From: Phycicoccus sp. Soil748
GTDB taxonomy: Bacteria; Actinomycetota; Actinomycetes; Actinomycetales; Dermatophilaceae
NCBI RefSeq assembly: GCF_001428025.1
Contig: NZ_LMSC01000012.1
Coordinates: forward strand, 263,619-327,618
Direction: 5' to 3'
DNA: 64,000 nucleotides
Both the position numbers and the translations under genes were made by a program. Under the pieces are notes generated by a model. That model saw only the letters and a program-made list of their open reading frames with translations, did no database searches and was not told the origin of the DNA. Positions 5,702 through 57,496 of the stretch are shown here, piece by piece (the stretch's first letter is position 1; every line of letters starts with the position of its first letter).

Positions 5702-7087
5702 ATGACGACTGAGGCGACCACGCCAACGGCGACGTGGCAGGGCAACGAGCACTACCGCAGGTCCTGGTACTGGTACGACTGGGCCAACTCCGCCTACGTC
5801 ACGACCACCGCGACGGTGCTGTTCACCCCCTACCTCACCGCCATCGCCGAGGCCGCTGCCTGCCCCGACCTGGCGGACGGCGAGACCTGCCGCACCAACC
5901 TCGAGGTCCTGGGCGTCGGGATCTCTCCGGGGTCGGTGGCGCCGTTCACGGTCACCCTCGCCACCATCGTCTCCGCGGTCGCCCTGATCTTCGTGGGGGC
6001 GATCGCCGACCGCTCCCCCAGGCCGGCGCGGCTGCTCGGTGTCTTCGCCCTGGTCGGATCCGTCGCCGCCTGCCTCATGGCGCTCGTCCGCGGCACCAAC
6101 TGGCAGCTGGGTGTGGTGCTGCTCATCGTGGCCAACCTCAGCCTCGGCGCCTCCCTGGTGGTCTACGACTCGATCCTGTGCCGGATCGCCAGCCCCGACG
6201 ACCGCGACAAGGTCTCCTCGCGCGGCTGGGCCCTGGGCTACCTCGGCGGCGGCCTGCTGCTCGCCATCAACTTCCTCATGCTGAGCAAGCCCGACGCCCT
6301 GGGCCTCGACAAGGGCGGCGCCGTACGGCTGAGCATGCTGATGGCGGGCCTGTGGTGGGCCGGCTTCTCGCTCGTCCCCGTCATCGGGATGTGGCGGCTG
6401 CGTGGCGTCGAGCGGCCGGAGGTGGCCCGGACGGCGGGCATCGTCGGCGGCAGCCTGCGCCAGCTCGCCTCGACCTTCCGCGAGCTGCGGCTGTTCCCCC
6501 AGACGATGCTCTTCCTGATCGCCTACCTGTTCTTCAACGACGGCATCCAGACCGTCATCGGCCAGTCGAGCCTCTACGGCCAGCGCGAGCTCGGGTTCCC
6601 CGAGACGACGATGCTGACGCTGTTCCTGATGGTCCAGTTCGTCGGCTTCGGCGGCGCCCTGCTCTTCGGCTCCCTGGCCAGGCGGTACGGCGCGTGGCGC
6701 ACCGTGCTCTGGGGCCTGGTCCTGTGGACCGGCGTCGTGGTCTTCGCCTACTTCGTGCCCGACAAGCAGGTGGCGCCGCTGTTCGTCCTCGGCGTTGCCA
6801 TCGGGCTGGTGCTCGGCGGCACCCAGGCCCTGAGCCGCTCGCTCTACAGCCAGCTGGTGCCGAAGGACCGGGAGGCGGAGTTCTTCAGCCTCTACCAGGC
6901 CATGGAGCGCGGGACGAGCTGGTTCGGGACGCTGACGTTCGGGCTCGTCTACCAGTGGACCGGCTCCTATCGTCCCGCCATCGTCGCCCTCGCCGTGTTC
7001 TTCATCCTCGGCGGTGCGCTGCTGGCCAGGGTGGACATGCGCCGTGGCATCCTCGAGGCGGGCAACACCCTCCCCCACGTGGTCTGA
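5702..7087 (+). CDS. MFS transporter, UMF1/Atg22-like
   Basis: This 461-residue membrane protein has about 12 predicted helices. Its N-terminus (YRRSWYWYDWANSAYVTTTATVLFTPYL) carries the YDWANSA signature of the UMF1/Atg22 family. Later features include KVSSRGWALGYLGGGLLL, FLIAYLFFNDGIQTVIG and GGTQALSRSLYSQLVP, all typical of that family. Yeast Atg22 exports amino acids from the vacuole; substrates of the bacterial members are not known. It sits alone between the carboxypeptidase and rbpA on the same strand. Confidence 0.9.
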   Translation: MTTEATTPTATWQGNEHYRRSWYWYDWANSAYVTTTATVLFTPYLTAIAEAAACPDLADGETCRTNLEVLGVGISPGSVAPFTVTLATIVSAVALIFVGAIADRSPRPARLLGVFALVGSVAACLMALVRGTNWQLGVVLLIVANLSLGASLVVYDSILCRIASPDDRDKVSSRGWALGYLGGGLLLAINFLMLSKPDALGLDKGGAVRLSMLMAGLWWAGFSLVPVIGMWRLRGVERPEVARTAGIVGGSLRQLASTFRELRLFPQTMLFLIAYLFFNDGIQTVIGQSSLYGQRELGFPETTMLTLFLMVQFVGFGGALLFGSLARRYGAWRTVLWGLVLWTGVVVFAYFVPDKQVAPLFVLGVAIGLVLGGTQALSRSLYSQLVPKDREAEFFSLYQAMERGTSWFGTLTFGLVYQWTGSYRPAIVALAVFFILGGALLARVDMRRGILEAGNTLPHVV

Positions 7088-7157
7088 CCTGCGCCTTCCC
7101 GAGTGAGCGATGTGATCCGCGTCACAGGCGGCCAACGGGCGCGCCACGCCGGACGTC

Positions 7158-7183
7158 GGAACATTGCACGGGTCGATGGCGTT
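7158..7183 (+). promoter_or_regulatory. SigR/SigH-type promoter upstream of rbpA
   Basis: GGAAC (7158-7162), exactly 18 bases, then GTT (7181-7183) fits the GGAAY-N18-GTT consensus of thiol-stress ECF sigma factors. The rbpA start is 66 bp downstream. RbpA is an established SigR target in Streptomyces, so position and pattern agree. A housekeeping promoter may also exist. Confidence 0.65.
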
Positions 7184-7248
7184 ATGCCTAGCGAATCCGA
7201 GCCCCCACCCGAGCGGGCTGGGAAACCACGCACGTTGGGAGAACCACC

Positions 7249-7608
7249 ATGGCAGAACGCACCCTTCGCGGTAGCCGAATGGTTTCGCACAGCCTCGAGA
7301 CCGACGACCACGTCGTCCCGAGCGAACGACAGATCACCGCGTACGTGTGCCCACTGGGGCACCGTACGGAACTGCCCTTCTCGATCGAGGCGGAGATCCC
7401 TCCCACCTGGGAGTGCCGCTGCGGCGAGGAGGCCCGGCTGGTCGACGGCCCGGAGCCCGAGGCCAAGCAGGTCAAGCACGTCCGCACGCACTGGGACATG
7501 CTGCTCGAGCGGCGCTCCATCCCCGAGCTCGAGGAGCTCCTGGAGGAGCGGCTGACGCTCCTGCGCGAGTCGCGTGGCGAGAAGCCGCGGCGCAAGCGCA
7601 CCGCCTGA
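7249..7608 (+). CDS. rbpA: RNA polymerase-binding protein RbpA
   Basis: This 119-residue protein matches RbpA throughout. It has the N-terminal MAERTLRGSRM segment, the core domain with YVCPLGH and WECRCGEEA (Cys cluster that can bind zinc in some members), a basic linker (KQVKHVRTHWDMLLERRS), and the C-terminal sigma-interacting helices (IPELEELLEERLTLLRE). RbpA is an actinobacterial factor that binds RNA polymerase and the principal sigma factor and stabilises the open promoter complex. A GGGAGA lies 6 bp before the ATG. The preceding SigR-type promoter suggests induction by disulfide stress. A strong bidirectional terminator separates it from convergent fxsA. Confidence 0.97.
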   Translation: MAERTLRGSRMVSHSLETDDHVVPSERQITAYVCPLGHRTELPFSIEAEIPPTWECRCGEEARLVDGPEPEAKQVKHVRTHWDMLLERRSIPELEELLEERLTLLRESRGEKPRRKRTA

Positions 7609-7622
7609 CCACGGCACCACCG

Positions 7623-7658
7623 CGAGACGGCCACCTCCTGCTGGAGGTGGCCGTCTCG
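7623..7658. terminator. Strong bidirectional terminator hairpin between rbpA and fxsA
   Basis: A perfect 16-bp stem joins CGAGACGGCCACCTCC (7623-7638) and GGAGGTGGCCGTCTCG (7643-7658) around a TGCT loop. It lies 15 bp past the rbpA stop and 15 bp past the convergent fxsA stop, so it can serve both transcripts. Confidence 0.92.
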
Positions 7659-7672
7659 TCGCGTGCGCCAGG

Positions 7673-8194
7673 CTAGAGGACCTCGCCCTCGATGATGTCG
7701 GGTCCGCCCGGGCCACCTGGGCCGCCGGGCCCACGACCCCTCCCGCCCGGGCCACCCCGACGGCCGCCGAACACACCCCCCAGCAGCCGCCGCGCGACCA
7801 CCGTCTCGAGCAGGGTCCGCGCGATGGGCCGGGTCACGGGCAGGATGAAGAAGAAGCCGACGACGTCGGTGAGGAAGCCCGGGGCGAGCAGCAGGGTCCC
7901 GCCGACCAGCACCAGGGCAGCGTCGGCGAGCTCACGGCTCGGCATCCGTCCGGTGTTGAGGGCGGAGGTGAGCGCAGACCAGGCGCGCGCCCCTTCTCGG
8001 CGGACCAGCCAGGCGCCCAGCGCAGACTCCAGCAGGAGGAGTGCGAGGGTCTGCCAGCCGCCGATGACCTTGCCGACGGCGATGATGGTGGCGATCTCCA
8101 GGACCGGCACGACCAGCAGCAGCACGAACACCACGGCCAGCCAGTGCGGCCGGCGGCGCCGTGCGGGAGGAGGCCCTCCTACAGCTCGTGCCAC
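7673..8194 (-). CDS. fxsA: FxsA-family membrane protein
   Basis: Read from GTG 8194, the protein has 173 residues with a basic N-terminus (ARRRRPHW) and about three hydrophobic segments ([61 protein letters not shown]). The PGFLTDVVG motif is diagnostic of FxsA, whose E. coli member relieves phage T7 exclusion by F plasmid. The tail is a Gly/Pro/Arg low-complexity stretch. The start overlaps the end of ppm1 by 16 bp, implying coupling. The rbpA/fxsA/ppm1 arrangement matches Rv2050-Rv2053c of M. tuberculosis. Its biochemical role is unknown. Confidence 0.85.
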
Positions 8195-8949
8195 GTCGGT
8201 TCCCGGCGCTGCGACAGGCCACGGAGCTGGTCGGCACGGTGGTGCACACCCCAGACGGTGATGCGCTGCAGGGACTCGCGCATGATGTCGCCGCTCATCT
8301 TGGAGTCGCCGATCACACGCTCGACGAACGTGATGGGCACCTCGACGACGCGCAGGCCCAGCCGGACCGCGCGCCGGGTCAGGTCGACCTGGAAGCAGTA
8401 CCCCTGCGAGGCGACCTGCTCCAGTCCCATGGTCCGCAGGGCCTCGGCGCGGTAGGCGCGGAAGCCGGCGGTCGCGTCGTGGACGGGCATCCCGAGGAGG
8501 GCCCGGGTGTAGAGGTTGCCCCCGACGCTGAGCGCCTTGCGGTGCAGCGGCCAGTTGACCACCGAGCCGCCACGGACCCACCGGGAGCCGATGACGAGGT
8601 CGGCACCGGCCAGGGCGTCCAGGAGGCGGTGCAGCTGCTCGGGCTGGTGGGAACCGTCGGCGTCCATCTCGACGAGGGCGTCGTAGCCGCGGTCGAGACC
8701 CCAGCGGAACCCCGCCAGGTAGGCCATGCCGAGGCCCTGCTTCGCGGGGCGGTGCAGCACGTGGACCTGGGGGTCGCCGGCGGCGAGCTCGTCGGCGACG
8801 TCACCGGTGCCGTCCGGTGAGCTGTCGTCGAGGACGAGGATGTCGGCGCCAGGGACGGCGGCACGGATGCGGCGCACGACCAGCGGGAGGTTCTCCCGCT
8901 CGTTGTACGTCGGGATGCACACGAGCACCCGCTCGATCTGGTCAGACAA
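8179..8949 (-). CDS. ppm1: Polyprenol monophosphomannose synthase (GT2 family)
   Basis: The 256-residue GT2 glycosyltransferase begins with [18 protein letters not shown], then [17 protein letters not shown] (nucleotide binding), [14 protein letters not shown] (DxD metal site) and [12 protein letters not shown]. This is the dolichyl-phosphate mannose synthase pattern. It transfers mannose from GDP-mannose to polyprenyl phosphate on the inner membrane face, giving the donor for lipoglycan and protein mannosylation. It is a stand-alone catalytic domain. In mycobacteria, Ppm1 acts with or is fused to Lnt, and here lnt lies directly upstream with an 8-bp overlap. Confidence 0.95.
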
Positions 8950-46802: not shown

Positions 46803-47633
46803 CTAGGGCCCGTCCTGCTCCTGGGGGCGCTGCGTCTGCGGGTTGGTCGACTCGTCCCGCGGCGACTCCCCGGTGAGGGTGTCGTGGTGCCCGGGCGTCG
46901 CCTCGTCCTCGGCCGGGATGTCGTGGGTCGGGTCCTCGGGGCTGAGCAGCGCCTCGAGCAGCCCGCCGCCGATGCGCCGGAAGGTACGGCGCGGACGCTC
47001 GCGGTCGAGCACCGCGACCTCGAGCTGGCCGGCGCCCAGGGTCCGGCTGGCTCCGCCGGCGGGGTCCTTGGCGAGCAGGTCGACGGCCAGGCGCAGGGCA
47101 TCGCCGAGGGTGAGCCCCGGCTCCCAGCGCTCCTTGAGCCCCGTCTCGATCGGCTCGGCGGCGCCGCCCATGGCGACGAACCCCCGCTCGTCGGCGACCG
47201 AGCCGTCGTAGGTGAGCCGGTAGATCTGGTCGTCGTCGGCCGAGTCCCCGACCTCGGCCACGACGATCTCGACCTCGTACGGCTTGGACTCCTGGGTGAA
47301 GACGGTCCCGAGCGTCTGCGCGTAGGCGTTGGCCAGGCCACGGGCCGTCACGTCCGTGCGGTCGTAGGAGTAGCCGCGGAGGTCGGCGTAGCGCACACCG
47401 GCGACCCGCAGGTTCTCGAACTCGTTGTACTTGCCGACGGCGGCGAACGCGATGCGGTCGTAGATCTCGGAGACCTTGTGCAGGGCCCGTGAGGGGTTCT
47501 CCGCGACGAAGGCGATGCCCTTGTCGTAGCCGAGCACGACGACCGAGCGGCCGCGCGCAATTCCCTTGCGGGCGTAGTCGGCCCGGTCCTTCATGAGCTG
47601 CTCGGGCGAGACGTAGAACGGCATGCTGCTCAT
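46803..47633 (-). CDS. prcA: 20S proteasome alpha subunit
   Basis: The 276-residue subunit begins [36 protein letters not shown], the gate/N-terminal helix region of PrcA. Core strands [68 protein letters not shown] follow. The tail from about residue 225 is acidic and Pro/Gln-rich. Alpha rings gate the chamber and dock the ARC ATPase through its GQYL end. The ATG overlaps the prcB TGA (ATGA). Confidence 0.97.
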
Positions 47634-48457
47634 CGCGCACCCCCCGGGTTGCCCTGGCGCGCGGCGACGACGGCCTCGACCGTCCCGCGCAGCTGCTCGT
47701 CGCTGCGGAACGCGACGCCCTGCACGCCGACCACGGCGACGGTGGGCCAGATGCGGCGGCCGATGTCGGGGCCGCCGGTGGCGGAGTCGTCGTCAGCGGC
47801 GTCGTAGAGCGCCTCCACGGCAAGGCTCACGGCCTCGTCGGCGGTCAGGCCCGGCCGCCAGAGCTTCTTCATCGCGCCGCGCGCGAAGAGCGAGCCCGAG
47901 CCCACGCTGTGGTGGTCGTGCTCCTCGTAGCAGCCGCCCGTGACGTCGTAGGAGAAGATCCGCCCGACCTGCCGGTCGAGGTCGTAGCCGGCGAACAGCG
48001 GCACGACCGCGAGGCCCTGCATGGCCATCGCGAGGTTGGCGCGGATCATCGACGCGAGGCGGTTCGCCTTGCCCTCCAACGAGAGCAGCGTCCCCTCGAT
48101 CTTCTCGTAGTGCTCGAGCTCGACCTGGAACAGCTTGACCAGCTCGATGGCGATGCCGGCCGTGCCGGCGATGCCCACGGCGGAGTACTCGTCGGCCGCG
48201 AACACCTTCTCCATGTCGCGGTTGGCGATGATGTTGCCCATGGTCGCCCGGCGGTCCCCCGCCATGACCACGCCACCGTCGTAGGTCACCGTGACGATCG
48301 TGGTGCCGTGCGGGGCCTCCAGCGTGCTCCCCGCAGGCAGGGCGCGCCGCGACGGAAGCAGGTGCGGGGCGTGGGCGCCCACGAAGTCGGTGAAGGAGGA
48401 CGAGCCCGTGGCGAGGTATGCCGCGGAGAGCCTGCCCGCGTCGGCTCCGGTGGTCAC
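47630..48457 (-). CDS. prcB: 20S proteasome beta subunit (catalytic)
   Basis: From GTG 48457 the protein has 275 residues with a propeptide of about 51 residues ending APHG. The mature subunit begins [24 protein letters not shown], so Thr52 is the N-terminal nucleophile. The catalytic Asp and Lys environment (AGDRRAT..., [16 protein letters not shown]) is intact. It degrades pupylated proteins delivered by ARC. The GTG overlaps the pup TGA (GTGA). Order pup-prcB-prcA is the standard actinobacterial one. Confidence 0.97.
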
Positions 48458-48660
48458 TGGCCGCCCTTCTGGACGAACCCGCGGACGAACTCCTCCGCGT
48501 TGGACTCGAGCACCCCGTCGATCTCGTCGAGCACGCTGTCGATGTCGGAGTCGAGGTTCTCCTTGCGGGCACTGGCCTCCGGCGCGGCGGGGGTGGGCTC
48601 GGGACCCTCGTCCGGGGCGTCGTCCCGGCGCTGGGGGCGGCTCTGCTCCTGGCTCGGCAT
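48454..48660 (-). CDS. pup: Prokaryotic ubiquitin-like protein Pup
   Basis: The 68-residue protein from ATG 48660 ([14 protein letters not shown]) is acidic and disordered, with the ARC-binding helix [34 protein letters not shown] at the C-terminus. It ends Gly-Gly-Gln, so Dop must deamidate the Gln to Glu before PafA uses it. AGAGG lies 8 bp upstream of this start, which fixes it over the longer frame to 48738. It is between dop and prcB. Confidence 0.97.
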
Positions 48661-48734
48661 GTCCGTGACCTCTCGCTCGGTGCTGCTGCGATGCGTGCTG
48701 CTGAGATGCGTGGGCGGGTCGCGGGCGACCCGCC

Positions 48735-50273
48735 TCACTCGACCCTAGTCGGAACCTGTCGTGATGCCGAGGCCAACTCGCGCAGCAGGGTGGCGGCGTC
48801 CGGGCTGCGGTCCAGGAGGCCGCCGACACTGGCGCGGGTGCCCCGGAGCGGTTCGAGCATCGGCACCCGCTGCAGCGAGGCCTGGCCGGGGACGTCGAAG
48901 ATCACCGAGTCCCACGAGGCGGCCGCGATCTGGTCCGGGTACTTCTCCAGGCACTTGCCCCGGAAGTAGGCGCGGGTGTCCTCCGGCGGCTGGTGCACGG
49001 CCTCGAGGACCTGCGCGTCGCTGACCAGCTCCTCGAACCGGCCGGCCCGGCGCAGGCGGTGGAAGATGCCCTTGTCGGGGCGCACGTCGGACCACTGGAT
49101 GTCGACGGCCCGCAGCCGGGGGTCGGACCAGTCGAGCCCGTCACGGTCGATGTAGCCCTGCAGCACCTGCTGCTTGCCCACCCAGTCGACCTCGCGGGCG
49201 GCCTCGGCGGGGTCGCGCTCGAGCTTGTCGAGCACGGTCGCCCACCACCGCATGACCTCCACGGTGTCGTCGTCGCGCTCGGCGCCGTACCGGTCCTGCA
49301 GGTAGCGCTCGGCGAGCTCGTGGTAGCGCCAGAGGAGCTGCACCGCGGTGAGCTTCGTGCCGTCGCGCAGCTCCACCAGCTGCCGGCAGGTGGGGTCGTG
49401 GCTGACGGCCTGCAGCGTGGACACGGGTCGCACGACGGTGAGGTCGACGTCGATGGCCCGGTCCTCGACCATGGCCAGCACCAGCGAGGTGGTGCCGAGC
49501 TTGAGCAGGTTGGCGACGTCACAGTGGTTGGCGTCGCCGATGATGACGTGGAGCCGGCGGTAGAGGTCGGCGACGGCGTGCGGCTCGTCGCGGGTGTTGA
49601 TGATCGGCCGCTTCAGGGTCGTCTCTAGGCCCACCTCGACCTCGAAGAAGTCGCTGCGCTGGCTCAGCTGGAAGCCGTGGTTGCGCGAGTCGACACCGAT
49701 CCCGACCCTGCCGGACCCCGTCATGACCTGGCGCGCGACGAAGAACGGGACGAGGTGGCGCACGATGTCGGTGAACGGCGTCTCGCGGCGCATGAGGTAG
49801 TTCTCGTGCGTGCCGTAGGACTGGCCCTTGCCGTCGGTGTTGTTCTTGTAGAGGTTGACGCCGGGCGGCACCTGCGACAGCCGCCGCACCGACTCGGCCA
49901 TGATCAGCTCGCCCGCGCGGTCCCACGCCACGGCGGCGCGCGGCGACGTCACCTCCGGCGAGGAGTACTCGGGGTGGGCGTGGTCGACGTAGAGGCGGGC
50001 TCCGTTGGTGAGCACGACGTTGGCGAGGGTCGGGTCCTCCTCGTCGGTGAGCTGGCTCGCGTCGGCGAAGGCGCGGCCCACCTCGAACCCGCGGGCGTCG
50101 CGCAGCGGCGCCTCGTCCGCGTAGTCCCACGAGGCGTGGGCCGCCCGGATGCCCTGCGCCGACGCGTACGCGTTGACCACCTGGCCCGACAGGAGCATGG
50201 GGTTGGCCGCGGGGTCCCCGGGCACGGAGATGCCGTACTCGGTCTCGATGCCCATCACGCGGCGCACGGTCAT
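48735..50273 (-). CDS. dop: Pup deamidase/depupylase Dop
   Basis: The 512-residue PafA homologue begins [19 protein letters not shown] and has the Dop-specific loop [21 protein letters not shown] before [15 protein letters not shown], which carries the catalytic Asp. [20 protein letters not shown] and [28 protein letters not shown] match PafA's ATP/metal parts. Dop deamidates Pup's Gln and also removes Pup from substrates. Its ATG overlaps the stop of a 15-residue upstream ORF (ATGA), which is itself preceded by a leaderless -10. Confidence 0.96.
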
Positions 50274-53044: not shown

Positions 53045-53126
53045 GCGCGCCAGTCTGCCGATCCCTTCTCCGGCGAGGGCCGCAACGGGTCGACCCTCGG
53101 CTGAAGGGATGACCAGCCGTTTTGGG

Positions 53127-53145
53127 TTTGGTAAGGCTTACCTAA
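53127..53145. promoter_or_regulatory. IdeR/DtxR iron box
   Basis: TTTGGTAAGGCTTACCTAA is a 19-bp palindrome with one arm mismatch. It fits the DtxR/IdeR consensus (TTAGGTTAGCCTAACCTAA) at about 15 positions as I count them. It ends 12 bp before the GTG of the downstream gene and abuts its -10, so a bound repressor would block transcription when iron is sufficient. Confidence 0.85.
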
Positions 53146-53151
53146 TACGGT
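53146..53151 (+). promoter_or_regulatory. -10 element for the iron-box gene
   Basis: TACGGT lies 6 bp before GTG 53158, directly after the iron box. TAATAC (53143-53148) overlaps as an alternative -10. Confidence 0.5.
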
Positions 53152-53157
53152 GTCGGC

Positions 53158-55743
53158 GTGGTCGTTCCTCCCCTCGTCGCCCCAAGCCGGCTCGCCCCGG
53201 CCTTCGTGACCTCGCTGCGCTCGCGCGGCGGGGCCCCGGCCGTGCACACCGCGACGCAGGCGCTCACGTATGCCGCGCTGGCCGACCGCGTGGACGAGGC
53301 CGCCGCGGCGCTGGGTGGCGGTCGGCAGCTCGTGCTGCTCGCCTGTGACAACACCCTCGAGACCCTCGTGACCTACCTCGGCGCGCTGGCGGCCGGGCAC
53401 GTCCCCCTTCTCGCCCCGGGCGACCGCCCGCACACCCTCGAGGCCCTCGTCGAGGCCTACGACCCCGACATCGTCGCAGGTCGGGGTGACGGGGACTGGC
53501 AGGTCGTGCGCCGCCCCGAGGGCGCGGGCGGCCGGCACGACCTGCACCCCGACCTGGCCCTGCTGCTGCCCACGTCCGGCTCCACGGGTTCCCCCAAGCT
53601 GGTCCGGCTGTCGCACGCCAACCTCGACAGCAACGCCGGCGCCATCGCCGAGGCCCTGGGCATCCGTGCCGACGACCGCGCCGTCACCAGCCTCCCGCTG
53701 CACTACTGCTACGGCCTCTCGGTCGTGCACAGCCACCTGGCGGTCGGCGCCGCGGTCGTCCTCACCGACCTGTCCGTCGTCGACCCGTGCTTCTGGGAGC
53801 TGGCCGACGCGACGGAGGTGACCACCCTGGCGGGGGTCCCACACACCTTCGAGCTCCTCGACCGCAGCGGGTTCGCCGAGCGCGAGCACCCGTCCCTGCG
53901 CACGGTCACCGCCGCCGGTGGTCGCCTGGCCCCGGAGACGGCCTCGCGCTACGCCGAGCTCGGCGGCCGTCGTGGGTTCGACCTGTTCGTCATGTACGGG
54001 CAGACCGAGGCCACCGCGCGGATGGCGGTCCTGCCGCCTGAGCTCCTGGCGACACGGCCCGAGGCGGTCGGCTTCGCCGTCCCCGGCGGCTCGTTCAGGG
54101 TCGACCCGCTCGGCGAGCTCGAGTGCGGGCTGGGCGAGCTCGTCTACAGCGGCCCCAACGTCATGCTCGGCTACGCCACCGACCCGGCCGACCTGGCGCG
54201 GGGCCGGGACGTGCACGAGCTGCGTACCGGTGACCTCGCCCGGATGACCCCCGACGGGCTCGTGGAGGTCGTCGGCCGACGGAGCCGGTTCGCCAAGGTC
54301 GTCGGTCTGCGCATCGACCTCGACCACGTCGAGCGCGACCTGGCGCAGGAGGGCCTCGAGGCCCACTGCGTCGACCTCGGCGACGCGGTCGGCGTGCTCC
54401 TGGCGCAGGCGGGGACGGGCGCTGCGGCCACCGAGGTGCTACGGCGCCGCCACGGCATACCGGCCGGTGCCGTCGTCGCGCTCGACGGGCTCACGCCCCC
54501 ACGGTTGTCGACGGGCAAGCCCGACTACCCCGGCATGACCGCCCTCCTGGGCGCGCACCGTGAGGAGCAGGAAGAGCTCGCGGCACCGGCGACCGGCGAC
54601 CGGCTCGTCGCGGTGGTCGAGCTCTACCGCGAGCTGCTCGACTCCCCGCAGGCCGGGGCTGACTCGAGCTTCGTCGACCTCGGCGGCGACTCCCTGTCCT
54701 ACGTCGAGGTCTCCCTGCGGCTCGAGCGCGTCCTGGGCGACCTGCCGTCCGGGTGGCACCTGCTGGCGCCGACGGAGCTGGTGGAGGCGGCCGCGCAGGC
54801 GGCACCCCGAGCGGGCTCGCGGCTGCACCGCGTGGAGACCAGCGTCGTGGTGCGCGCGGTCGCCGTCCTCCTCATCCTCGCCAACCACACCCACCTGTCG
54901 TTCGTGCCCGGCGGGGCGCACACCCTGCTGGCGCTGGCCGGCTACAACCTGGCCCGGTTCCAGCTCACCGACCGGCCCCGCGCGGCCCGGGCGCGCGGCA
55001 TCGCGCGCAGCGCCCTGCGGATCTGGGCGCCGAGTGCGGCGTGGATCGGCGTCGTGGCGCTCGTCGCGGGCACCTACGACTGGCGCAACGTGCTGCTGCT
55101 CAACCAGGTCCTCGGCGACTGGGCGCGCTGGTCACCGCACTGGCACTACTGGTTCATCGAGGCGCTGGTGGCCCTGCTGCTCGGGACGGCACTGCTCGTG
55201 TCGGTCCCGGCCGTGGACCGCTTCGAACGGCGTCACCAGCTCGCCCTCCCCCTGGCCCTGGTCGCGGTCGGCCTGTTCACGCGGTACTCCGTCCTGGTGC
55301 CGGACGCGGGGCCGTACCGGGGCGCGAACGCCTACGTGCTCATCTGGCTGTTCGCCACCGGCTGGGCCGCTGCGAGGGCGAGCACCTGGCCGCAGCGCCT
55401 GCTCGTCTCGGCGATCCCTGTCCTGACCGTTCCCGGGTTCTGGCCGACGATGCCCACCCGCGCGGCGACGGTGGTCCTCGGGCTGCTCGTCCTCACCTGG
55501 GTGCCGACCGTGGCGCTGCCCGCCTGGCTCGGACGCGCCGCGTCACTGGTGGCCGGGGCCAGCCTCTTCGTCTACCTCACGCACTTCGTCGTCTACCCGC
55601 ACATCATGGCGACGAGCTCGGTCCTGGCCATGGCCGCGTCGGTCGCCGTCGGCATCGCCTACTGGCAGCTGTGGCTCCGCGTGGAGTCGACGGCTGGGCG
55701 GCTCGCCGCCCAGGTGACCCGGCTGACGCGCCGGACCACCTGA
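53158..55743 (+). CDS. Adenylation-carrier-acyltransferase-3 fusion protein, iron-regulated
   Basis: The 861-residue protein has three parts. Residues 1-470 form an AMP-binding adenylation domain: TSGSTGSPK (139-147), YGQTEA (280-285), RTGD (356-359) and the catalytic Lys in LSTGKPDYP (Lys454). Residues about 480-545 are a carrier domain with GGDSLS (Ser512 would take phosphopantetheine). From about 559 a membrane domain of about 10 helices looks like acyltransferase-3 (VRAVAVLLILANHTHLSFVPGGAHTLLALAGYN; ASLFVYLTHFVV near the end). It would activate an acid, load it on its own carrier and pass it across or onto a membrane or surface acceptor, as DltA/C/B do in three proteins. The iron box implies a siderophore or iron-starvation role. 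Substrate and acceptor are unknown. Confidence 0.85.
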   Translation: MVVPPLVAPSRLAPAFVTSLRSRGGAPAVHTATQALTYAALADRVDEAAAALGGGRQLVLLACDNTLETLVTYLGALAAGHVPLLAPGDRPHTLEALVEAYDPDIVAGRGDGDWQVVRRPEGAGGRHDLHPDLALLLPTSGSTGSPKLVRLSHANLDSNAGAIAEALGIRADDRAVTSLPLHYCYGLSVVHSHLAVGAAVVLTDLSVVDPCFWELADATEVTTLAGVPHTFELLDRSGFAEREHPSLRTVTAAGGRLAPETASRYAELGGRRGFDLFVMYGQTEATARMAVLPPELLATRPEAVGFAVPGGSFRVDPLGELECGLGELVYSGPNVMLGYATDPADLARGRDVHELRTGDLARMTPDGLVEVVGRRSRFAKVVGLRIDLDHVERDLAQEGLEAHCVDLGDAVGVLLAQAGTGAAATEVLRRRHGIPAGAVVALDGLTPPRLSTGKPDYPGMTALLGAHREEQEELAAPATGDRLVAVVELYRELLDSPQAGADSSFVDLGGDSLSYVEVSLRLERVLGDLPSGWHLLAPTELVEAAAQAAPRAGSRLHRVETSVVVRAVAVLLILANHTHLSFVPGGAHTLLALAGYNLARFQLTDRPRAARARGIARSALRIWAPSAAWIGVVALVAGTYDWRNVLLLNQVLGDWARWSPHWHYWFIEALVALLLGTALLVSVPAVDRFERRHQLALPLALVAVGLFTRYSVLVPDAGPYRGANAYVLIWLFATGWAAARASTWPQRLLVSAIPVLTVPGFWPTMPTRAATVVLGLLVLTWVPTVALPAWLGRAASLVAGASLFVYLTHFVVYPHIMATSSVLAMAASVAVGIAYWQLWLRVESTAGRLAAQVTRLTRRTT

Positions 55744-55756
55744 GCGGGCCGACGGC

Positions 55757-57496
55757 TCAGAGGTACTGGCCGGTGTTGGCGACGTTGTCGATCGACCGAC
55801 CCGGCTCGGTACCGCTCTTGCCGGTGATCAGCGTGCGGATGTAGACGATCCGCTCGCCCTTCTTGCCGGAGATGCGGGCCCAGTCGTCGGGGTTGGTCGT
55901 GTTGGGCAGGTCCTCGTTCTCCTTGAACTCGTCGACGCAGCTGGCGAGCAGGTGGTCGACCCGGATGCCCTTCGCGCCGACGGTGAGGAAGTCCTTGATC
56001 GCCATCTTCTTCGCCCGGTCGACGATGTTCTGGATCATGGCGCCGGAGTTGAAGTCCTTGAAGTAGAGGACCTCCTTGTCGCCGTTGGCGTAGGTGACCT
56101 CGAGGAAGCGGTTCTCCTCGATCTCGGAGTACATCCGCTCCACGGTGGCCGTGATCATCGCGTCGACCGTGGCCTGGGCCGAGCCGTCGTGCTCGGACAG
56201 GTCGTGCTCGTGCAGCGGCAGGTCGGCGGTGAGGTACTTGGTGAAGATGTCGCGGGCGCTCTCGGCGTCGGGGCGCTCGATCTTGATCTTCACGTCGAGG
56301 CGTCCGGGTCGCAGGATGGCCGGGTCGATCATGTCCTCGCGGTTGGAGGCGCCGATGACGATGACGTTCTCGAGCCGCTCGACTCCGTCGATCTCCGAGA
56401 GCAGCTGCGGGACGATCGTCGTCTCGACGTCGGAGGAGACGCCCGACCCGCGCGTGCGGAACAGGCTGTCCATCTCGTCGAAGAACACGACCACGGGCGT
56501 GCCGCCGGAGGCCTTCTCCCGGGCCCGCTGGAAGATCAGGCGGATGTGGCGCTCGGTCTCGCCGACGTACTTGTTGAGCAGCTCGGGGCCCTTGATGTTG
56601 AGGAAGAACGACTTGCCGATGGGCTTGCCCTCCTTCTCGGCGACCTTCCTGGCCAGGGAGGACGCGACCGCCTTGGCGATGAGCGTCTTGCCACAGCCGG
56701 GCGGCCCGTAGAGCAGGACCCCCTTCGGGGGCTTGAGCTGGTGCTCGGTGAACAGGTCGGGGTGAAGGTAGGGCAGCTCCACGGCGTCGCGAATGGCCTC
56801 GATCTGACCCGCGAGCCCGCCGATGTCCTCGTAGTCGATGTCCGGCACCTCTTCGAGGACCAGCTCGGCGACCTCGGCCTTGGGGATGCGCTCGTAGACG
56901 AACCCGGACCGCGGCTCGAGCAGCAGGGCGTCGCCGACCCGGATCGGCTCGCCCTCGAGGGAGTCGGCGAGGCGGCAGACCCGCTCCTCGTCGGCGTGGG
57001 CCACGATGAGCACCCGGCCCTCGCCGAGCAGCTCCTTGATCATGACGACCTCGCCGACCCGCTCGTAGCCGCAGGTCGCCACGACGTTCATCGCCTCGTT
57101 GAGACGCACCTCGCGGCCGCTGGAGAGCTCGGCGGGGTCGACCGCCGGGCTGACGGCCACGTGCATCTTGCGGCCGCCGGTGAGGATGTCGACGGTGGCG
57201 TCGTCGTAGGACTCGAGGATCACGCCGTACGCCGCCGGCGGCTGGGCGAGCCGGTCGACCTCGGACTTCAGGGTGACGATCTGCTCGCGCGCCTCCTTCA
57301 GGGTGCGCACCAGCCGCTCGTTCTGGGAGGAGATGGTGGCCAGGTTGGACTGCAGCTGCAGCACCCTGGTCTCGAGCTCACGGGACCGCACGGGGGCGTC
57401 CGCGAGCCGCTGCCGCAGGGCGGCGACCTCCTCGGACAGGAGCTCCGCCTGGCGGCGCTCCTCGGGGCTGTCGTGGTGGGGGCTGTGGTCGGTCAT
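55757..57496 (-). CDS. arc: Proteasome-associated AAA ATPase ARC (Mpa)
   Basis: The 579-residue protein begins with a coiled coil (about 12-84, [24 protein letters not shown]) that binds Pup, then OB interdomains, then an AAA module: Walker A GPPGCGKT, Walker [12 protein letters not shown], and arginine-finger region. It ends GQYL, the tail that docks on and opens the proteasome alpha ring. It unfolds pupylated proteins for PrcBA. GGGAG lies 5 bp before the ATG. It follows trmI as in mycobacteria. Confidence 0.97.

Follow-up and report, generated by a model that had tools for sequence, protein, structure and literature searches.

A putatively IdeR-repressed adenylation–carrier–acyltransferase-3 fusion protein with a possible role in siderophore-independent Fe(III) uptake

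The window, by which we mean the whole 64,000-nucleotide stretch of Phycicoccus sp. Soil748 DNA analysed here, contains an open reading frame that starts with GTG and encodes a protein of 861 residues (Table 1). The preliminary description of this DNA, made from the letters alone, had read it as a single protein joining an intact adenylation domain, a carrier with the motif GGDSLS and an acyltransferase-3 (AT3) membrane domain. Our Pfam search bears this out, as all three domains score above their cut-offs: AMP-binding with 153.8 bits (cut-off 29.9), PP-binding with 26.3 bits (cut-off 20.8) and Acyl_transf_3 (PF01757, residues 564-818) with 32.6 bits, a narrow pass over the cut-off of 31. The core motifs of the adenylation and carrier domains are unbroken (TSGSTGSPK, YGQTEATAR, TGD, K454 and GGDS512LS), and hydropathy averaged over a 33-member alignment revealed hydrophobic segments, about ten by eye, from residue 563 onward. 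The same Pfam search found no SGNH domain in the protein. Among the best 25 of 89 NCBIfam matches no model reached its cut-off, the top one, a model for an exosortase-associated ligase, scoring 150 bits where 592 are required, and a sequence search for solved relatives of the AT3 part returned only antibody chains at chance level.

Table 1 Features of the fusion gene and its promoter region (positions in the window; residue numbers refer to the 861-residue protein).
Feature	Position	Strand	Remarks
-35-like hexamer TTGGGT	53122..53127	+	By eye from upstream comparison; TTGAGT in several close relatives
IdeR/DtxR box TTTGGTAAGGCTTACCTAA	53127..53145	.	16/19 to the consensus in PMC1382209
-10-like element TACGGT, immediately 3' of the box	53146..53151	+	TANNNT there in 45/56 family boxes
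CDS, 861 aa, adenylation–carrier–AT3 fusion	53158..55743	+	GTG 12 nt past the box; probably leaderless
Adenylation domain, residues ~21-470	53218..54567	+	Pfam AMP-binding 21-339; domain end approximate
Arg288 of adenylation domain	54019-54021	+	Kept in 47/47 aligned members
Lys454 of adenylation domain	54517-54519	+	Kept in 47/47 aligned members
Carrier domain core, residues 486-527	54613..54738	+	Pfam PP-binding
Phosphopantetheine Ser512 of carrier	54691-54693	+	Kept in 47/47 aligned members
AT3 membrane domain, residues ~555-855	54820..55722	+	R566-X10-H577 and S802-X3-Y806 present, RXXR missing; from Pfam, alignment, hydrophobic segments and motifs in PMC9833829

The fusion is conserved in related genomes. 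A protein search at E <= 1e-20 matched 27 of 58 relatives, with a full-length match in 20 of them (E <= 4.7e-131) and adenylation-domain matches only in the other 7. Scanning named genomes with a sequence pattern identified 54 loci, spread over Pedococcus, Arthrobacter and its kin, Kocuria, Nocardioidaceae and others, and a phylum-wide draw matched 18 of 396 genomes at E <= 1e-90, namely 15 fusions (1 cut by contig ends) and 3 adenylation-only cousins. Further copies in a plasmid collection come from Rhodococcus, Mycolicibacterium, Arthrobacter kin, Rhizobium, Sinorhizobium, Leisingera, Shinella, Rhodobacter and others. Far from being degenerate in most homologues, the core residues R288, K454, S512, R566 and H577 are invariant in all 47 full-length members aligned (the 33 of the first alignment plus 14 more), with S802 in 46 and Y806 in 45 of the 47. 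This invariance indicates that the predicted adenylation–carrier–AT3 machine is under strong constraint. Three loci (L080, L081 and L083) had been considered as a conserved split gene; their three-frame readings break at differing places, which ruled this out, and they appear to be separately frameshifted copies.

The box upstream of the gene agrees at 16 of 19 positions with the 19-bp DtxR/IdeR consensus TTAGGTTAGSCTAACCTAA, as given in PMC1382209, and 8 of its 9 position pairs match when TTTGGTAAGGCTTACCTAA is compared with its own reverse complement. It is the sole match to the consensus with at most 3 mismatches in the 3.97-Mb genome, the reversed-pattern control giving 0. To the survey of this box across the family we admitted 81 actinobacterial loci, some of them close kin and more than half from Arthrobacter and its kin, out of 92 that were oriented; left out were 3 same-contig duplicates, 3 adenylation-only cousins, 2 alphaproteobacterial loci and the 3 frameshifted copies. 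In 56 of the 81 loci the promoter of the gene itself carries a box of at least 14/19, and in 6 more such a box heads an operon shared with an importer, leaving 19 with a box in neither place; the box too is thus conserved, and this across families. With the threshold lowered to 13/19 the corresponding numbers are 63, 7 and 11. Base-shuffled upstream regions reached at least 14/19 in only 10 of 4450 cases (89 loci with a slightly shorter stretch, of which 55 real ones reached it).

That the promoter overlaps the box, as also proposed earlier, is supported by cross-species comparison and not by consensus: a sigma-70 consensus scan found no promoter. TANNNT begins at most 2 nt past the box in 45 of the 56 family boxes of at least 14/19, compared with 5% of shuffles, and an in-frame start codon lies 8-21 nt past it in 50 of the 56, compared with 14% of shuffles; in 42 of those 50 the spacing is 12-13 nt. 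By this layout the gene is probably leaderless, its repressor site occupying the spacer from -35 to -10, a placement that fits repression by IdeR. The genome encodes one DtxR-family repressor (a single PF02742 match), and its nearest solved chain is IdeR (1fx7, 251 bits). With a box at its promoter and an iron-type regulator in the same genome, the gene has the features of a predicted IdeR/DtxR regulon member.

A looser box pattern has three sites in the genome: that of the window and one each on contigs C9 and C7. The C9 box, which is weaker than the window's by the strict consensus (more than 3 mismatches), immediately precedes an operon for a complete ferric importer; the binding protein encoded there shares 56% identity with one linked to the fusion gene in Rhodococcus. 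The C7 box departs from the looser pattern at 2 positions; the genes around it look like glycosyltransferase genes, and it was taken as a chance occurrence. We also searched the genome for siderophore biosynthesis. The preliminary description had noted no siderophore gene nearby, and this extends genome-wide for the three families searched: neither an IucA_IucC nor a Condensation domain was found in the genome or in the 861-residue protein, and for the Lys/Orn oxygenase (PF13434) nothing convincing appeared, only three partial matches of at most 33 bits to a profile that also matches in 12 of 14 control genomes. A siderophore cluster of the NIS (IucA/IucC), NRPS condensation or hydroxylase type was rejected on this basis. 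A search for EfeO, run without a positive control, likewise found none in this genome.

Across the family, where a neighbour recurs it is a ferric importer. In 24 of the 81 loci a complete ABC importer of the FbpABC/FutABC type (binding protein, permease and ATPase) lies within 5 kb of the fusion gene. It is upstream on the same strand at 12 of these loci and downstream at 5, and the two are convergent at 4 and divergent at 3. In 4 of the 81 loci EfeO and EfeB adjoin the gene. In 53 loci, that of the window among them, neither importer type was found within the flank read. The fewest changes that explain the ABC linkage on a FastTree tree of 83 rows, which has some long branches and does not separate gains from losses, is 10. 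Two linked binding proteins compared with solved structures are of two kinds, one FutA-like (nearest 7li0 and 2pt1, with 288 and 228 bits) and one SfuA/FbpA-like (nearest SfuA, 1xvy, with 456 bits). Within the window's own genus the importer adjoins the gene in 3 genomes (G002, G003 and G009); in the window's close clade it is located elsewhere in the genome.

Linkage is accompanied by co-occurrence. An FbpA-type binding protein at E <= 1e-30, a limit set after the list was seen, is present in 20/20 gene-positive and 13/38 gene-negative relatives (Fisher p = 3e-7; by genus 11/11 and 12/36, p = 8e-5), and at E <= 1e-10, the limit of the search, in 20/20 and 17/38 (p = 9e-6; by genus 11/11 and 16/36, p = 7e-4), all of these tests over 58 relatives ignoring relatedness. 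A different picture emerged from four alphaproteobacterial plasmid regions (Rhizobium, Shinella, Leisingera and Rhodobacter): no ferric importer or Efe genes stand beside the homologues there, and no box of at least 14/19 is found at the gene. ABC transporters near two of these copies were considered as ferric importers and rejected, since they look like sugar and pyrimidine-precursor types. These copies without an iron context indicate that the chemistry of the fusion is not bound to iron in all of its hosts.

What the enzyme might do can be approached from its two ends. At the adenylation end, the position of PheA Asp235, the amino-group-binding Asp of NRPS A domains, corresponds to residue 184 in an alignment with a gramicidin synthetase module and is Cys184 here; 41 of the 47 members have Cys at this place and the other 6 have Ser. 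Two stand-alone cousin ligases with the motif YGQTEAT(A/S)R (L122 and L123) cluster with an SDR reductase and LuxE homologues, and one of the two clusters also holds LuxC and a carrier-like protein below the Pfam cut-off. The Cys or Ser residue and the company of the cousin ligases suggest that the activated substrate is probably a carboxylic acid other than an alpha-amino acid. Arg288 had been considered as a sign of an acidic substrate and was dropped; because it is common to the cousin ligases as well, we name no acid.

At the membrane end, the motif R-X10-H in TM1 is absolutely conserved in AT3 proteins and RXXR at TM3 highly conserved, one Arg of the latter holding the 3'-phosphate of CoA in simulations, according to PMC9833829, which names S-X3-Y as a further AT3 motif. 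RXXR is missing in 47/47 aligned members, whereas it is found in 4/4 other AT3 proteins of the genome (R-X10-H in 3/4). The membrane part thus looks like a divergent AT3 domain set apart from typical acyl-CoA-using members. The absent RXXR is most simply read as a sign that the arm of the fused carrier stands in for CoA as the donor. The second Arg of RXXR is retained in 36/47 members, however, an Arg stands four rather than three residues before it in 15/33, and the first Arg of R-X10-H, which contacts the CoA phosphate as well in the model of PMC9833829, is kept. In view of these Arg residues, a loss of CoA use is only suggested.

Taken together, we propose that the gene encodes a one-polypeptide acyl-transfer machine, repressed by IdeR, that serves siderophore-independent Fe(III) uptake; to this statement as a whole, whatever form the product takes, we assign a probability of about 55%. 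In the cytoplasm, a carboxylic acid that is probably no alpha-amino acid would be activated by the adenylation domain and loaded onto Ser512 of the fused carrier. The carrier arm would present the acyl group to the AT3 pore, from which an acceptor on the outer side would receive it. The resulting conjugate, either a small molecule that is secreted or a group attached to the surface, may then help to supply Fe(III) to importers of the FbpABC/FutABC or EfeUOB type, while IdeR would repress the fusion gene through the promoter box. This order of reactions with the carrier as donor seems likely to us, and a role in iron uptake very likely. The shared iron switch, the repeated linkage to ferric importers and the lack of NIS and NRPS synthetases in this genome together point to uptake of the siderophore-independent kind. 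That the product itself binds iron is a tentative guess, at somewhat less than even odds. The more specific version, in which the enzyme alone joins its acid to a common acceptor through its own pore and so supplies the importers with an Fe(III) ligand, secreted or attached to the surface, we regard as rather unlikely.

The same features might instead reflect remodelling of the envelope under iron starvation, in which a surface glycan or lipid is acylated for protection, charge or adhesion, with no handling of iron, and the shared IdeR signal and neighbourhood merely give the same timing. AT3 proteins are chiefly described as acylating extracytoplasmic sugars (review PMC9558356), and the alphaproteobacterial homologues without an iron context would agree with such a function. 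However, the repeated and variously arranged linkage to importers and the 20/20 co-occurrence exceed what shared regulation needs, and the hosts differ in their envelope polymers, which would argue for a common or small acceptor; we therefore consider envelope remodelling unlikely.

The preliminary description had suggested a siderophore or the cell surface as the target of acylation, and it is the siderophore branch that has weakened, as the recurrent neighbour is a ferric importer and no NIS or NRPS synthetase is present here. Tailoring of a siderophore made by other genes or other species would be compatible with the iron control predicted from the box survey, and an NIS synthetase does occur in 2/20 gene-positive relatives. 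Against it stand the absence of IucA_IucC and Condensation domains from this genome, the lack of any association with NIS synthetases (2/20 versus 7/38, p = 0.48, which is also not significant as a negative link) and the fact that both compared binding proteins are ferric-ion types rather than siderophore receptors, so that we judge it improbable. The gene might also be a generic fusion of acid ligase and AT3, its iron box and neighbours being a coincidence or an inheritance in few clades, for which the weight of Arthrobacter and its kin among the loci and the 53 loci without an adjoining importer could be cited. Yet the box occurs far beyond chance and is placed at the promoter, the ABC linkage has changed at least 10 times on the tree, and the FbpA co-occurrence holds at genus level, which makes this explanation highly improbable. 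We therefore prefer the acyl-transfer machine serving Fe(III) uptake.

If this preferred reading is correct, it bears on how iron reaches the importers. To our knowledge, it is not known how importers of the FbpABC and EfeUOB types in Gram-positive bacteria obtain Fe(III) at the cell surface, nor do we know of any acyl-transfer enzyme in the FbpABC/FutABC or EfeUOB uptake systems. Being conserved and predicted to obey the same iron switch, the enzyme is a concrete candidate for this surface supply step. In the less likely version with an Fe(III) ligand as product, importers so far regarded as siderophore-independent would be fed by that ligand. The enzyme would also be an AT3 protein whose donor is a carrier protein and not CoA; it could reveal how acyl groups pass from a fused carrier into an AT3 pore, and the question of the AT3 donor would become testable with one purified protein. 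Neither the fusion nor its link to importers is described in the literature searched, comprising titles and beginnings of abstracts among the matches listed and few subscription papers, and the AT3 review PMC9558356 uses neither 'AMP-binding' nor 'siderophore' in its main text.

Among known systems, AT3 acyltransferases (OafB, OatA and others) share with the fusion the PF01757 match, R-X10-H in TM1 and S-X3-Y in TM9; the fusion differs by the absent RXXR, by its own acid-activating and carrier modules and by having no SGNH domain. The Dlt pathway (DltA, DltC, DltB and DltD) proceeds by adenylation, tethering to a carrier and transfer by an integral membrane protein to an acceptor on the outer face. 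Its logic of activating, tethering and transferring is the same, and in this respect the earlier idea of an all-in-one, iron-regulated Dlt counterpart fits the domains. The protein is not of the Dlt family, however: the membrane part matches PF01757 alone and not the MBOAT type of DltB, and the adenylation domain scores only 71.9 bits against the DltA model TIGR01734 (cut-off 559.85), with Cys or Ser at the Asp235 position. It also differs from the Dlt pathway in being a single polypeptide and in its predicted iron control. The stand-alone YGQTEAT(A/S)R ligases have the closest adenylation domain among the non-fused proteins examined, but they lack a fused carrier and an AT3 domain and belong to a different pathway. 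FbpABC/FutABC and EfeUOB are genomic and regulatory partners of the gene, and the enzyme itself is not a component of a transporter. NRPS siderophore synthetases are iron-repressed, as is predicted for the fusion, and have adenylation and carrier domains, whereas the fusion has a membrane transferase in place of a condensation domain; NIS synthetases, also iron-repressed, are of the IucA/IucC type, which the fusion is not, and it is linked to ferric-ion importers. The parts of the predicted machine are thus known and its logic is Dlt-like. If its product is an iron ligand, the novelty goes further, and a one-protein route would join NRPS and NIS as a third way in which bacteria make iron ligands.

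The gene for the adenylation-carrier-acyltransferase-3 fusion sits inside a region of the window whose open reading frames (ORFs), going by their translations, resemble subunits of the proteasome, a Dop-like ligase and an ATPase of the ARC/Mpa kind. A ferric importer operon of the FbpABC/FutABC type lies on another contig of the same genome.

Coordinates of the importer operon, the ORFs around the fusion gene and a plasmid-borne fusion copy
Feature	Location	Coordinates	Remark
Ferric ABC importer operon	L150, contig C9, own genome	7739-11449	IdeR/DtxR-type box directly 5' of operon
Proteasome-, Dop- and ARC/Mpa-like ORFs	window	46803-50273, 55757-57496
Fusion copy	L154, plasmid, Pseudarthrobacter defluvii	5995-8682	15/19 box ~30 nt 5' of annotated start

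Plasmids of Rhodococcus and Mycolicibacterium (L087, L091) each carry a fusion copy together with a ferric importer, and genes for a cation P-type ATPase, a cadmium transporter, LspA and ArsR adjoin the pair; it is as if these copies and their importers were pieces of mobile metal islands. No importer was found next to another plasmid copy, that of P. defluvii, which stands outside our counts of loci, boxes and importers. On four alphaproteobacterial plasmids (L089, L090, L152, L153), neither ferric importer nor Efe genes were found adjoining the homologues. The R. etli homologue is flanked by two genes annotated as adenylate cyclases.

Among L045, L080, L081 and L083, a gene named from its translation as a multicopper oxidase lies immediately 5' of the fusion gene on the same strand at one intact fusion copy and at two or three frameshifted ones, the sequence at L083 covering the oxidase as a fragment only. 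The oxidase is possibly a ferroxidase partner of the fusion protein.

Stand-alone cousin ligases at L122 and L123 adjoin SDR and LuxE genes, with LuxC and a carrier-like protein additionally encoded at L123. Such gene groups may constitute an acid-handling pathway.
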